Shown here: one piece after another, positions 1 to 4,436 of the stretch
Numbering within the stretch: position 1 is the stretch's first letter
How the letters are laid out: each line of letters opens with the position of its first letter
Source: Bacteroidota bacterium
GTDB lineage: Bacteria; Bacteroidota; JABWAT01
Length of the DNA stretch: 64,000 bases
NCBI GenBank assembly: GCA_013360915.1
Contig: JABWAT010000004.1
Location: 1 to 64,000 of the forward strand
Reading direction: 5' to 3'
The notes under the pieces: generated by a model
What the model was told of the DNA's origin: nothing
Seen by the model: only the letters and a program-made list of their open reading frames with translations
The model's database searches: none
Position numbers and translations under genes: made by a program

Positions 1-100
1 CAGGTCCGGTTGGGAAGGTAGGTTTATGCATCGGGGTTTTTTGATTGTGGTTTCTGGAAGGTGCGGTTTCAGGCAGCGCCGCTTAAACTTAGCGTTAGAT
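1..100 (+). repeat. Integron attC site, 3' part (cut by window edge)
   Basis: The stretch ends in the core box GTTAGAT (94-100), which fits the integron R' consensus GTTRRRY. Just before it lies a GC-rich arm, GGCAGCGCCGC, at about 72-82, which would pair with a left arm outside the window. The same box plus TTTATG follows at the next site (777-789), so both cassettes begin identically. The left half of the site is not visible, so length and pairing cannot be confirmed. Confidence 0.6.
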
Positions 101-103
101 TTT

Positions 104-664
104 ATGAAAAATATTTTATTACTAGTAATTACTTTAATTACTCTTAATTGCGGAAAACCCAATAAAAGTGATTCCAGTTCATCGAATATAATCCACCTCG
201 ATTCCTCAGATTCTATCATAAAATCTTTAAAAGATACAACCAAGATTGTTTACAAAATCTCTCCTCAATTGGAAGTTATTCCTCTTGAGTCAGAGGATAT
301 AGAAGACAATATATTTTATACATGGGTTACATTCTTATCAGAATCTAAAATTCTTTGGTCAGAAAATGATAGTACAAGAAGTGTTGCATTTAGAGTTTTA
401 ATAACAACATCAGAAATATACAACTATATTTATATTGAGAAAATCACATATGGTGAAGAAGGCTTTGGAAAAAGAATTGAATACAGGAGTCGTTTGAATA
501 CAATTATATTTAGCGATAAATTTAAAATTACCGGTGAATTTACGGGAGTAAAATTCTCAAATTGGATATCTTATAACTCATTTATTTTTACTATAGATAA
601 CAAACGTTTTGAATTAACAATACTAAACCAAAACGAAGCGCAAATATTATTATGTGATTCCTAA
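104..664 (+). CDS. Cassette-borne lipoprotein of unknown function
   Basis: This 186-residue protein starts with a lipoprotein-like signal, MKNILLLVITLITLNCGK, with the probable lipidated Cys at residue 16. The rest is an AT-rich, Ser/Thr- and Asn-rich soluble domain that I do not recognise. An in-frame ATG at 26 exists, but it lies inside the attC site, and the next ATG at 104 begins 3 bases after the core box and opens the signal peptide, so 104 is chosen. The stop codon overlaps the R'' box of the following attC, as is usual in compact gene cassettes. No Shine-Dalgarno sequence is seen. Function unknown; its mobility as a cassette is an inference from the flanking sites. Confidence 0.75.
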   Translation: MKNILLLVITLITLNCGKPNKSDSSSSNIIHLDSSDSIIKSLKDTTKIVYKISPQLEVIPLESEDIEDNIFYTWVTFLSESKILWSENDSTRSVAFRVLITTSEIYNYIYIEKITYGEEGFGKRIEYRSRLNTIIFSDKFKITGEFTGVKFSNWISYNSFIFTIDNKRFELTILNQNEAQILLCDS

Positions 665-783
665 TCTAACAATCAATTTCAGGCTGACCCCAGAATAGTT
701 GGCATGAAATTGAGTTTTCGGTTCGTTCAAATAAATTGTAAAAATGTGCTGTGTTCTGGGTCAGCCTAAATTGGTCGTTAGAT
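664..783 (+). repeat. Integron attC recombination site (complete)
   Basis: R'' box ATCTAAC at 664-670 fits RYYYAAC and R' box GTTAGAT at 777-783 fits GTTRRRY. Between them the inner arms AGGCTGACCCCAGAA (679-693) and TTCTGGGTCAGCCT (754-767) are inverted repeats that match except for one extra C in the left arm. That single unpaired base is the strand-selecting extrahelical base known from attC sites. Length is 120 bp, within the known attC range. It follows the gene at 104-664 and precedes the next one, in the order expected for + oriented cassettes. Confidence 0.9.
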
Positions 784-786
784 TTT

Positions 787-1332
787 ATGGCATCTGAACC
801 TAAATATGAAAATTATTCTTTGATTGAGTTATTGGATTCACTTAAGCATATAGATAAGGGAAGTTATCCGAATAGATATAATAAAATTCAAGAAGAGATA
901 ATTAAACGAAAATCCGAGAAGGAAAACATAGTTGAGAAGAAGTCATATTTATCAACAAAGAATAAATGGCTTATATCATTCTTAATTATTTCAACCTTAA
1001 TTGGATTTGTATTTATTTATAATATTTTTATTTTATTATTTAATATTCTATTAATACTTCCAAGTTATTTTTATTATAAGTATAAAAGAAACGACAGATT
1101 ATGGTTAATAATATTATTAGGGATAATATTTATTATTATTGGAGGTTTATTTTATTTTTACCCGGTTCATTTTGACGAAAACACAAGAATTTATGGTCTA
1201 CCATTTATGATAGGTGCTATTCAAAGTGGTGCTGATTTTCCAAATCCAGCATTTCCTGTTTCAGTTTTGTTTAACACTATTTCCTGGTATTTGTTTTCTA
1301 AAATTGTATTGTTAGTAAAAATCAGAATCTAA
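787..1332 (+). CDS. Cassette-borne membrane protein with charged N-terminal motif
   Basis: The protein has 181 residues. The N-terminal part (about 8-43) has the spacing YS..EL.D.L..ID....P.R...I..EI..R, a helical motif that I have seen at the start of hypothetical membrane proteins in other bacteria. A hydrophobic region with about three to four membrane segments follows (about 60-165). The start is the ATG 3 bases after the attC core box; the upstream in-frame ATG at 751 lies inside the attC and is rejected. The TAA stop overlaps the R'' box ATCTAAC of the next site. Very AT-rich coding sequence. Function unknown; an inner-membrane location is inferred. Confidence 0.72.
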   Translation: MASEPKYENYSLIELLDSLKHIDKGSYPNRYNKIQEEIIKRKSEKENIVEKKSYLSTKNKWLISFLIISTLIGFVFIYNIFILLFNILLILPSYFYYKYKRNDRLWLIILLGIIFIIIGGLFYFYPVHFDENTRIYGLPFMIGAIQSGADFPNPAFPVSVLFNTISWYLFSKIVLLVKIRI

Positions 1333-1390
1333 CAAACAATATTAGGCTTACCACAGAATGGTTATCATAAAATTAGTAGCTATATTCAGT
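1327..1390 (+). repeat. Truncated attC site (5' half only)
   Basis: ATCTAAC at 1327-1333 is a perfect R'' box, and the next 40 or so bases are clearly related to the left half of the attC at 664 (both read ATCTAACAA.CAAT..., then AGGCT.ACC.CAGAAT). No matching right arm or GTTRRRY box follows at the expected distance of about 120 bp. The site looks broken by a deletion or insertion somewhere near 1375-1395. The right boundary given here is approximate. Confidence 0.65.
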
Positions 1391-1720
1391 TTGCCTTGGC
1401 TTTTATTAGTTATCAAGTTCTTTGGAAATTTGCACGTTCCATTCGCTCCATGGTAACGATTAAAACCTGGAGTTCAACTTTGTTTCTTTCGGTTTTGCAA
1501 AATGAAAAAGTGGGCGTTTTTGCTTTTTATGTTTTTTATGTTTTGAGGTCTCGGGTTTCTTGTCAGTTTTTCTCAGTTACAAAAATTAAATATTTTCCCC
1601 AAACAGTCAGAACGCGCTTTTGCTGCCCTTTAGCTTTTGGTTTAAAAATCTCAATTCCCTACTTTGTCTTGGTTTCAAAGCGTTTCTGTTAGAAAACGCA
1701 TTATATCCAAGACCGTGCAA
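1391..1720. other. Non-coding stretch inside the cassette array
   Basis: I see no convincing gene here. Open frames crossing it are Phe/Cys-rich, lack start signals and look like chance translations of T-rich DNA. It lies between a half attC (1327-1390) and a complete attC (1721-1839), so it is either an ORF-less cassette or debris from a deletion that removed the right half of the preceding site. T-rich, low-complexity runs dominate 1480-1560. Confidence 0.5.
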
Positions 1721-1839
1721 ATCTAACTATCGCTTCCGGCCGATTTGCACACGGCTGGGTTTCCGGAAAGTTAAACAATTTTCTAAGGTTTTCGGCTTCG
1801 GTTGGTTCGCGTGCAAACGGCAGAAGCTAGGCGTTAAAT
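1721..1839 (+). repeat. Integron attC recombination site (complete)
   Basis: R'' box ATCTAAC lies at 1721-1727 and R' box GTTAAAT at 1833-1839; both fit the consensus. The inner arms GCTTCCGGCCGATTTGCAC (1732-1750) and GTGCAAACGGCAGAAGC (1811-1827) form an imperfect inverted repeat with unpaired bases in the left arm. Length is 119 bp, almost the same as the site at 664, but the arm sequence is unrelated to it, as is normal among cassettes. Confidence 0.85.
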
Positions 1840-1846
1840 CATTCAT

Positions 1847-2575
1847 ATGATAATATTTTTTGTCCCAATCATATTGATCATCGTTGTTTTTTCGAACAAG
1901 GACATCATTAATAGGGTACAAGCATCAGGAATGAGTTATATTGAAATTTGCCATGTTTCTTTTTGCCTTGAGTTAGAAACTCTGTACAATCCATATGTGA
2001 AAAATTTGGATTCCCTCGTATTCGATTACGGATTCTATTCTGGGACTGGTGAAATATTGACAATTGCTTCCGATAATGATTCAAGAGTATATAGTGTTTT
2101 AAACAATGTTTTTAATGTCACTGGTACTAATAAGCCTGTTCAAGAAGAAAAAGTATCATTAAAGGTTGAAAAAGACACATTAATAGTTAAAGAAAAATGT
2201 GTTGTCTTCTATTACAAATCCACGGAAGAATGGGAGCAAGTAAGTGAGACAGAAGAATTATATCTAATAGAAGAATACTCTGATTATTTTAATTATCTGG
2301 AAAGATTTGAAAGCTTATACGCTGACTCCCTGAGGTATTACGGTATCAAATTGGTCATATCGATCAATAGGTATATTTCGTTTTCAGGACTAAATAAGGA
2401 AACATTTTTTGATAGAGCAAGTTATAGTAATCTGGGGATAATTTGTTTTTCGCCAGATTCTGCTATACAAATTAACTCTGGTGTTAATATTGAATCTGGA
2501 TATCTTAGAATTATCAATGAGTATTTTGGTCTAAGTATCCAGGAGTCGAAATTATCAGATAATTTTCCAGAATAA
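1847..2575 (+). CDS. Cassette-borne protein of unknown function, N-terminal membrane anchor
   Basis: The protein has 242 residues. Residues 1-16 form a hydrophobic segment (FFVPIILIIVVF) that could be a signal anchor; the rest is an acidic, Tyr- and Ser-rich domain with alternating strand-like stretches and no motif I know. The ATG lies 8 bases after the attC core box at 1839, and the stop touches the next, degenerate attC, which supports a single-gene cassette. Codon use is AT-rich like its neighbours. Function unknown. Confidence 0.7.
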   Translation: MIIFFVPIILIIVVFSNKDIINRVQASGMSYIEICHVSFCLELETLYNPYVKNLDSLVFDYGFYSGTGEILTIASDNDSRVYSVLNNVFNVTGTNKPVQEEKVSLKVEKDTLIVKEKCVVFYYKSTEEWEQVSETEELYLIEEYSDYFNYLERFESLYADSLRYYGIKLVISINRYISFSGLNKETFFDRASYSNLGIICFSPDSAIQINSGVNIESGYLRIINEYFGLSIQESKLSDNFPE

Positions 2576-2646
2576 TTCTAGCTATCCTTTCGTGCGTACG
2601 CTGTCGACAGTGTTTCCGGCAGCGTCGCTCATAAAAGTTGTTAAAT
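2575..2646 (+). repeat. Integron attC site, short and slightly degenerate
   Basis: GTTAAAT at 2640-2646 is a consensus R' box. The inner arms GCGTACGCTG (2594-2603) and CAGCGTCGC (2620-2628) are inverted repeats apart from one extra T in the left arm, again the expected extrahelical base. The R'' box is imperfect (TTCTAGC for RYYYAAC). At about 72 bp it is shorter than the sites at 664 and 1721 but within the known range. It is the last attC I can recognise, so the array probably ends here or one gene later. Confidence 0.7.
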
Positions 2647-2665
2647 ACTAATAAAACGAGATAAT

Positions 2666-3088
2666 ATGAAGATTCTGCTTTTAATCCTTTTACCACTTTC
2701 CCTATTTTCCTGTGTAGCAATCACGAAAATGAAGGATTCCTCTGATACTAAATTGGAAAAGACATCTGTGGCCGTGGTTGATACAACCAAAGAATACGAA
2801 ATCGCGGATACGTTGCCTGAAATGAAGAAGGGCCTTTCAGAACTGGCGAGCAGACTAGTCATACCAACTGAATTTTTGAACTCAGGGTTAGAAAATGGAA
2901 CAGTTGTTGTTCGTGCATTGATTGGAATAAATGGGAAGGTCATTAAGACTTCAATTATAAAAAGTCTTGGTTATGGGTGTGATGAACAAGTTGTTTCTGC
3001 CTTGAATGAGACTCCGTTTTCACCGGGTGTCATAAAGGGTACAGCGGTGAAAGTGTGGATAACTATTCCGATTAGATTTAAGAAATAA
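2666..3088 (+). CDS. Lipoprotein with TonB C-terminal-like domain
   Basis: The protein has 140 residues, with a lipoprotein signal (MKILLLILLPLSLFSC, lipidated Cys at 16). The C-terminal half, about residues 65-139, fits the TonB C-terminal fold: a strand ending GTVVVRALIGINGKV, then SLGYGCDEQVV, then a FSPG motif and a final strand of alternating hydrophobics. Such domains bind TonB boxes or form small stand-alone modules. There is no TM-plus-proline linker of a true TonB, so this is not a complete energy transducer. It directly follows the last attC and has no attC after it; it could be the oldest cassette or the first fixed gene. Confidence 0.7.
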   Translation: MKILLLILLPLSLFSCVAITKMKDSSDTKLEKTSVAVVDTTKEYEIADTLPEMKKGLSELASRLVIPTEFLNSGLENGTVVVRALIGINGKVIKTSIIKSLGYGCDEQVVSALNETPFSPGVIKGTAVKVWITIPIRFKK

Positions 3089-3704: not shown

Positions 3705-4436
3705 ATGATTCGTGCTCTTTTAATTCTTTTCAGTATGACGTTTTCACACGTCGTTTCTTTTTCACAGATAAATCCTGTTGAACAATATCCACCTAAGAAT
3801 TGGGAGCTGGGCTTTGCAATTGGTCCAGATTTTACTTTGGGTTCCTTTCAAGGCTCTTTTATATCTATATCAAAGTATTTTACTGAGAATGAAAAGTTGA
3901 GATTTGGATTATCCTCAGAATTATCAGCAAGTGAAACAGAAATCAACCTGACCAGGCATCACATGGATACATTGTATGCATCGAACAAATTTCCAGATGA
4001 ATATAACCGCCGTTTTGTAAGATTTTCGATTCAATATTCAGAATACCTGCCAAAGTCCCGAACAATCAAACCATATTATGTTTTTGGCCCCTTTCTGAGT
4101 CTTACATCCAATAACGATACAGATAATTGGATTTCTGGTGATTTAAACACGTCCTATGTTCGTCGTAATAAAACTGAGATGATAATGGTTGGAGTAGGTG
4201 TATCGGGAGGAGTAGGCGCTGAATGGGAATTAACGGAGGCTATTTCAATTCATGCGGAATACCAATTTGGCTTTGGTTATTACTGGGGGAACACAGAGAC
4301 AACATTAACTTCTCACAGAACAAGGTATGGAATGATAGATTCAGAGTCGAAGGTCAGGGAAGTCATGAAGAATGATACTTCTGAATGGTTACTAAAAGGA
4401 TATGGGGTGCTTTTTGGACTCAGTTTGGCTCTGTAG
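3705..4436 (+). CDS. Outer-membrane beta-barrel protein
   Basis: The protein has 243 residues with a cleavable signal peptide (about 1-21, ending VSFSQ). The mature protein alternates polar and hydrophobic residues in strand-length blocks with aromatic girdle residues (for example RFVRFSIQYSEYLP, YYVFGPFLSLTS, AEYQFGFGYYWG), as in an 8- to 10-stranded barrel. The usual C-terminal aromatic is replaced by LSLAL, so insertion-signal quality is modest. I do not recognise a family beyond outer-membrane-beta-barrel. It sits in the AT-rich left region, 52 bases after the small lipoprotein. Confidence 0.65.
   Translation: MIRALLILFSMTFSHVVSFSQINPVEQYPPKNWELGFAIGPDFTLGSFQGSFISISKYFTENEKLRFGLSSELSASETEINLTRHHMDTLYASNKFPDEYNRRFVRFSIQYSEYLPKSRTIKPYYVFGPFLSLTSNNDTDNWISGDLNTSYVRRNKTEMIMVGVGVSGGVGAEWELTEAISIHAEYQFGFGYYWGNTETTLTSHRTRYGMIDSESKVREVMKNDTSEWLLKGYGVLFGLSLAL

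Follow-up and report, generated by a model that had tools for sequence, protein, structure and literature searches.

Positions 1-2646 of the window (by which we mean the whole 64,000-nucleotide stretch of DNA that was analysed, bases 1-64000 of contig C4 in a host genome of 3.65 Mb and 51 contigs) are a genuine integron gene-cassette array, and this array consists of four cassettes and not of three as an earlier note on this DNA had counted. Very probably the array forms the far end of a chromosomal integron that has its head, with the integrase gene intI and the attI site, on another contig, C23. The integron itself is of a known kind, and the parts worth following are a conserved gene-less cassette in the window and what appears to be a natural lone insertion of a cassette in a related genome. 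The FMO protein (PF02327) was found in six sampled genomes of the host's GTDB phylum, which therefore also holds green sulfur bacteria, and it is absent from the host; from this occurrence we infer that the phylum is the Chlorobi-Ignavibacteria-Rhodothermia assemblage.

attC sites and cassettes of the window

The features of the array are listed in Table 1. The coordinates given earlier for the two complete attC sites, 664-783 and 1721-1839, hold; their R boxes match or approach the consensus, all of their L-box pairs are Watson-Crick, and the single extra base that had been seen in the first is indeed extrahelical and has a counterpart in the second. The shorter site said to end at 2646 was recovered too, though its R'' is off consensus, and the site suspected of being cut by the left edge is represented by its R' box.

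Table 1. Features of the cassette array in the window and copies of the conserved block in relatives
Feature	Position	Strand	Details
Cut attC, 3' part	1-100	+	R' GTTAGAT at 94-100; severed by contig end; 82-83% identical to last two C23 attC sites
Cassette w1	95-777	+	lipoprotein ORF 104-664 with lipobox; G^TT cores at ends; R'' complementary 7/7 to own 5' R'
attC H, complete	664-783	+	R'' ATCTAAC, R' GTTAGAT; 30.9 bits, E 5.8e-6 (model without window sites); L pairs 11/11
Cassette w2	778-1379	+	membrane-protein ORF 787-1332; 56% protein homologue with intact attC in G003
attC, H-type, internally deleted	1327-1385	+	R'' ATCTAAC retained; centre and L' arm gone; degenerate R' GCTATAT at 1379-1385
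Cassette w3, gene-less	1380-1833	+	1381-1839 matches whole array cassettes of G003 (84%) and G002 (80%)
30-nt non-coding block TTTGGTTTnAAAnTCTCAATTCCCTACTTT	1636-1665	+	inside w3; 28/30 positions invariant in five copies
Block copies	L104:1849-1878, 2307-2336, 4372-4401; L079:284-313 (-)		gene-less cassettes of sister genus
attC I, complete, sister-genus type	1721-1839	+	ATCTAAC / GTTAAAT; 51.4 bits, E 8e-12 (model without window sites); L pairs 11/11
Cassette w4	1834-2640	+	orphan ORF 1847-2575
attC J, short, partly degenerate, array end	2576-2646	+	R'' TTCTAGC off consensus; L pairs 10/11; 17.9 bits

A first covariance model, R1, contained the window sites and was circular for them, and therefore a second one, R2, was made that drew on six sites of C23 and eight of relatives and excluded those of the window. 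Since MAFFT misaligned the short sites when full-length attC sequences were used, the R''-L'' and L'-R' arms were aligned and the centre was trimmed. When the 64-kb window was scanned with R2, the sites at 664-783 and 1721-1839 were recovered together with one further match, the cut site at 11.9 bits, and there was no other credible attC. The score of the short site at 2576-2646 corresponds to an E-value of 0.0065 with filters off and 13 kb searched. A structural detector, which is blind to R'' boxes of the form ATATAAC, returned at a score of 22 or more just the three complete sites in 64 kb on both strands, and in shuffled sequence it returned two matches at this score in 120 kb of one strand. 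These two matches, the variability of attC, and the weak hairpins that AT-rich DNA yields are what would speak for reading the sites as chance or non-integron inverted repeats, but this reading has practically no probability left and was refuted by the E-values from the independent model, by covariation, and by the presence in this genome of an intI together with sites of this family. The covariation was measured in the L boxes of a 20-sequence attC I family, where 92.7% of the cells were paired and the score was 0.307, compared to 0.127 in shuffled sequence and at most 0.067 when the boxes were slid.

The fourth cassette had been overlooked, and so had a damaged site in front of it. The segment 1326-1374 is an 82% repeat of the first part of attC H, and the L pairs of the site at 1327-1385 are 7 of 11, which is the same level as in shuffled sequence. 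In G003, a genome of the sister genus in the same family, the homologue of ORF 787-1332 has a complete attC behind it, 95% identical to the window's attC H over 118 nt, and from this intact counterpart it follows that the window site has lost its centre and L' arm. That 1326-1839 is one fused cassette was ruled out because the matches in G003 and G002 reveal two. The earlier note was right that the stops of the first two ORFs (662-664 and 1330-1332) overlap R'' boxes, but the R'' under the second stop belongs to this separate, internally deleted attC, which brings the count to four cassettes, including the gene-less one. The ORFs begin 3, 3, and 7 nt past the R' boxes, within the 3 to 8 bases proposed. 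The attC-bounded cassettes stand in tandem and in one orientation, mostly with one ORF each. If a cassette was formerly a circle, its R'' should complement the R' at its own 5' end, and in nine cassettes this was so at 57 of 63 positions (permutation P 0.0098); in the case of attC 2576-2646 the match was 4 of 7.

The view of the cassette genes as orphans was largely borne out, the exceptions being two matches among 395 genomes of the phylum. In this set ORF 1847-2575 had no other match, ORF 787-1332 had a single one of 56% in the sister genus, and ORF 104-664 had a single one of 35%. The last lies at G115:C74:46817-47239 (L100), no attC was detected nearby (L105), and it is possibly a non-cassette relative. 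No confident function was obtained for the three window cassette proteins from PADLOC, PHROGs, NCBIfam, and Pfam, and no relevant family was found in Rfam, either in the whole window at the gathering score or in bases 1-3000 by E-value. The cassettes are AT-richer than the flank as had been stated, their GC content being 29-33% compared to 53% at 12-64 kb, but the low GC (38%) does not stop with the array and extends to about 5.7 kb. In the segment 2647-9500 AT-rich genes run on past the last attC, and no attC was detected there; they encode a lipoprotein with a TonB C-terminal domain (2666-3088), another lipoprotein, an outer-membrane barrel, and a TPR protein, and they are possibly older cassettes that are without their sites.

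Since degeneracy affects two of the four attC sites in the window, a portion of the array may no longer be mobile. Taken further, this would mean that the distal end is a fossil in which the cassettes from 778 on cannot be excised and slowly decay, as the absence of the L' arm from attC 1327-1385, the off-consensus R'' of attC 2576-2646 with its poor match to its own 5' end, and the AT-rich genes without attC beyond 2646 would suggest. We consider this somewhat unlikely, however, since neither the site at 664-783 nor that at 1721-1839 is damaged or poorly paired, and the ORFs are still open.

Integrase, attI core, and the array on contig C23

The window starts at base 1 of C4 and its left edge is therefore the end of the contig; intI and the attI core were found on C23. 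The intI gene is at C23:30051-30989 on the minus strand and scores 414 bits against TIGR02249, for which the cut-off is 265, and its product can be aligned over its full length to the Vibrio IntI of known structure, 2a3v (E 9.4e-78), and retains the catalytic motifs. An attI-like core, G^TTAGGC, lies at C23:31184, some 183 nt from the start of intI, which is divergent from it. The core is complementary at all positions to the R'' of the first C23 cassette; because attI has no fixed consensus, the assignment is based on position and core. Following this core there are six attC-bounded cassettes up to the contig end in an orientation that matches that of the window array. The last cassette of C23, truncated by the contig end, codes for an Mrr N-terminal domain (L010:1035-1253) like that of type IV restriction enzymes and may possibly be a defence cassette. 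Two neighbouring C23 cassettes, L009:19173-19949 and L010:102-878, have the same attC type and encode membrane proteins that are 39% identical, and the first of these copies is broken by an in-frame stop. Contig C31 also encodes a tyrosine recombinase of 363 aa (L012:1244-2335); it shares about 30% identity with IntI and was rejected as an integron integrase because it scores below the integron cut-off.

The earlier note had named the lack of attC matches, of an intI gene, and of arrays in related genomes as grounds against an integron, and since attC matches, an intI in the same genome, and arrays in relatives were all found, none of these grounds holds. Its interpretation of the segment as integron DNA thus stands, with the attI core and the further cassettes in the genome in addition. 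What was not borne out is the description as a mobile integron. The flanking genes, which are DegP- and RecO-like on C23 and a chorismate synthase gene on C4, indicate a chromosomal location, and positions 1-2646 had no match in the plasmids or phages searched. The integron is chromosomal; a mobile one would be carried by a plasmid or transposon. In the assembled sequence, which has a gap between C23 and C4, eleven attC sites were seen, including the cut one and the deleted one, and the figure used for a large array is more than about ten.

The arrays on C23 and C4 are most likely one integron that was split by the assembly. The last element of C23 is a cassette and the first of C4 is an attC that agrees with it in type and orientation, as would be expected if the assembly had broken in a repeat-rich array, and among the readable contigs of this genome attC sites were seen on C23 and C4 alone (all but one contig under 3.2 kb read as N). 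These two observations stand against the alternative that the window array is a separate CALIN, that is, an attC cluster without an integrase, located away from the C23 integron and seeded by the same IntI. For this alternative it can be said that there is no physical link between C23 and C4, that a lone cassette away from its integron occurs in G003, and that the DegP and chorismate synthase genes are not adjacent in relatives: in G001 they are separated by 104 kb and in G002 and G003 they lie on different contigs, and their synteny in these three genomes therefore gave no support for the join. On balance we regard a separate cluster as improbable.

A probable explanation for the array as the far end of the C23 integron is that IntI would cut between G and TT and so insert cassettes, in circular form, at attI, older ones being shifted away from intI until they end up in the window. 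Indirect signs of such excision and insertion by the integrase are the match between the two ends of single cassettes and, in a relative, a lone cassette for which an empty site is known. The resulting distal order would be the lipoprotein cassette, the membrane-protein cassette with its damaged attC, the gene-less cassette, and the orphan-protein cassette with its short attC. In this explanation the join of C23 and C4, the activity of IntI, and the role of the gene-less cassette as a promoter for the next cassette are the putative parts.

Cassettes shared with the sister genus and the gene-less cassette

A comparison of cassette content among related strains had been proposed; intI and attC arrays were found in relatives, and two of the four window cassettes, w2 and w3, have close relatives in the sister genus. 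In the search of relatives, 21 of the 60 genomes had an intI above the cut-off, and the four members of the family were all among these. The four family IntI proteins form one clade with 100/99 support, within which the host IntI pairs with that of G001 (64% identical; L009:15046-16002 and L078) against the genus split, G001 being assigned to the same genus as G002 and G003; a transfer of intI, or its divergence, within the family may be the reason. An incomplete intI interrupted by an in-frame stop was seen in another family of the phylum (G034:C8:49143-49853). In G003 there is an array of at least 12 attC sites at the start of a contig (L104, G003:C15:1-12763), which is probably the far part of the G003 integron that has its intI on C32.

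The relative of w2 in G003 is not in an array. It stands alone, a cassette of 668 bp at a G^TT junction (L103:9607-10282 on G003:C1), and it sits directly after the stop of an endonuclease/phosphatase-like gene. The orthologous site in G002 (L109 on G002:C87) is empty, with a gap of 11 nt in the alignment where G003 has 678 nt, and the endonuclease/phosphatase-like proteins of the two genomes are 98% identical. As judged from this alignment, the lone cassette would be a natural insertion of the attG type.

The attC sites of the host genome are of several types and not of one uniform type. What sets attC I apart is its identity of 75-89% with G002 and G003 sites, compared to 50-59% with sites A, C, D, and E of its own genome. 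It is of the sister-genus type, and w3 therefore carries the attC of another genus, as would be expected if that genus, or a common pool, was the source from which it was captured. The match of w3 to the G003 and G002 cassettes begins at the cassette boundary, and the gene-less family has five copies, namely w3, three in G003, and one in G002. There is no reading frame common to the five copies, which differ by indels of 1, 2, and 5 nt. Although the distant copies are only 61-69% identical overall, they share the 30-nt block of Table 1, the invariance of which was reached in none of 5000 column shuffles. Since the column shuffle ignores regional variation in rate, constraint on the block is likely rather than proven. 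The block was found nowhere outside this cassette family in the fetched loci and IMG/VR. It resembles the pattern TTTG-N20-TACTTTG, with the final G absent in two of the five copies, and we take this pattern to be similar, though not identical, to the Bacteroidetes -33/-7 promoter. A structured RNA was not supported as the consensus fold of w3 had almost no covariation gain, only -0.32 kcal/mol. A sigma-70 scan of w3 gave no clear excess, and in silico prediction has been reported to fail for such cassettes (PMC11014356).

By analogy, w3 is most likely a portable promoter for the cassette that follows it, because most of the tested gene-less cassettes of Vibrio show promoter activity on the sense strand (PMC11014356). 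Our tentative suggestion for the family as a whole, held with less than even confidence, is that it serves as a portable element of regulation, as a promoter or, with less likelihood, as a small RNA or a protein-binding site, which is traded between genera of this bacterial family and activates the cassette behind it. Alternatively, w3 could be the relic of a decayed gene, as some gene-less cassettes of Vibrio contain truncated genes (PMC11014356) and single copies of this family have unshared ORFs of up to 119 aa. Against a relic, no frame is common to the five copies, the indels break the frame, and drift alone would not give a block so invariant amid so much divergence; we therefore think a decayed gene rather unlikely.

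Relation to known integrons

Most reported integrons are gammaproteobacterial. Mobile integrons had been described as poorly documented in this type of bacterium, but integrons are in fact documented in the group: complete ones are on record for Chlorobi, Ignavibacteriae, and Salinibacter ruber (PMC9024848), and the Bacteroidetes/Chlorobi group is included in an older survey (PMC2426708). Given these reports and the intI in 21 of the 60 sampled relatives, the presence of an integron here is ordinary. What makes it important is its family, a natural collection from the green sulfur bacterial phylum that lets the sharing of cassettes between genera be read directly from sequence, along with a damaged attC and its intact counterpart and a lone cassette and an empty site. 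The gene-less cassette found across genera also makes it testable whether portable promoters keep promoter-distant cassettes expressed outside Vibrio.

Like sedentary chromosomal integrons, this one has intI divergent from the attI core, one-way tandem cassettes, proteins of mostly unknown function, and low GC; unlike them, it does not have one uniform attC type but sites of 155, 144, and about 120 nt and one that is borrowed from the sister genus. Cassette insertion at genomic attG sites has been described (Loot et al. 2024, as cited in PMC12901181), and the lone relative of w2 in G003 is similar in being at a G^TT junction outside arrays. Compared to that study, the G003 case would be a natural one, deduced by comparison with G002, and it concerns a related locus and not the window. 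Finally, gene-less promoter cassettes are known from Vibrionaceae and from an oral metagenome (PMC11014356, PMC6557892), and w3 is like them in being fully attC-bounded, without a gene, and upstream of an ORF cassette. What distinguishes w3 is that its promoter role is putative and that it is one of five homologous copies, present in three genomes of two genera, that have the 30-nt block in common.
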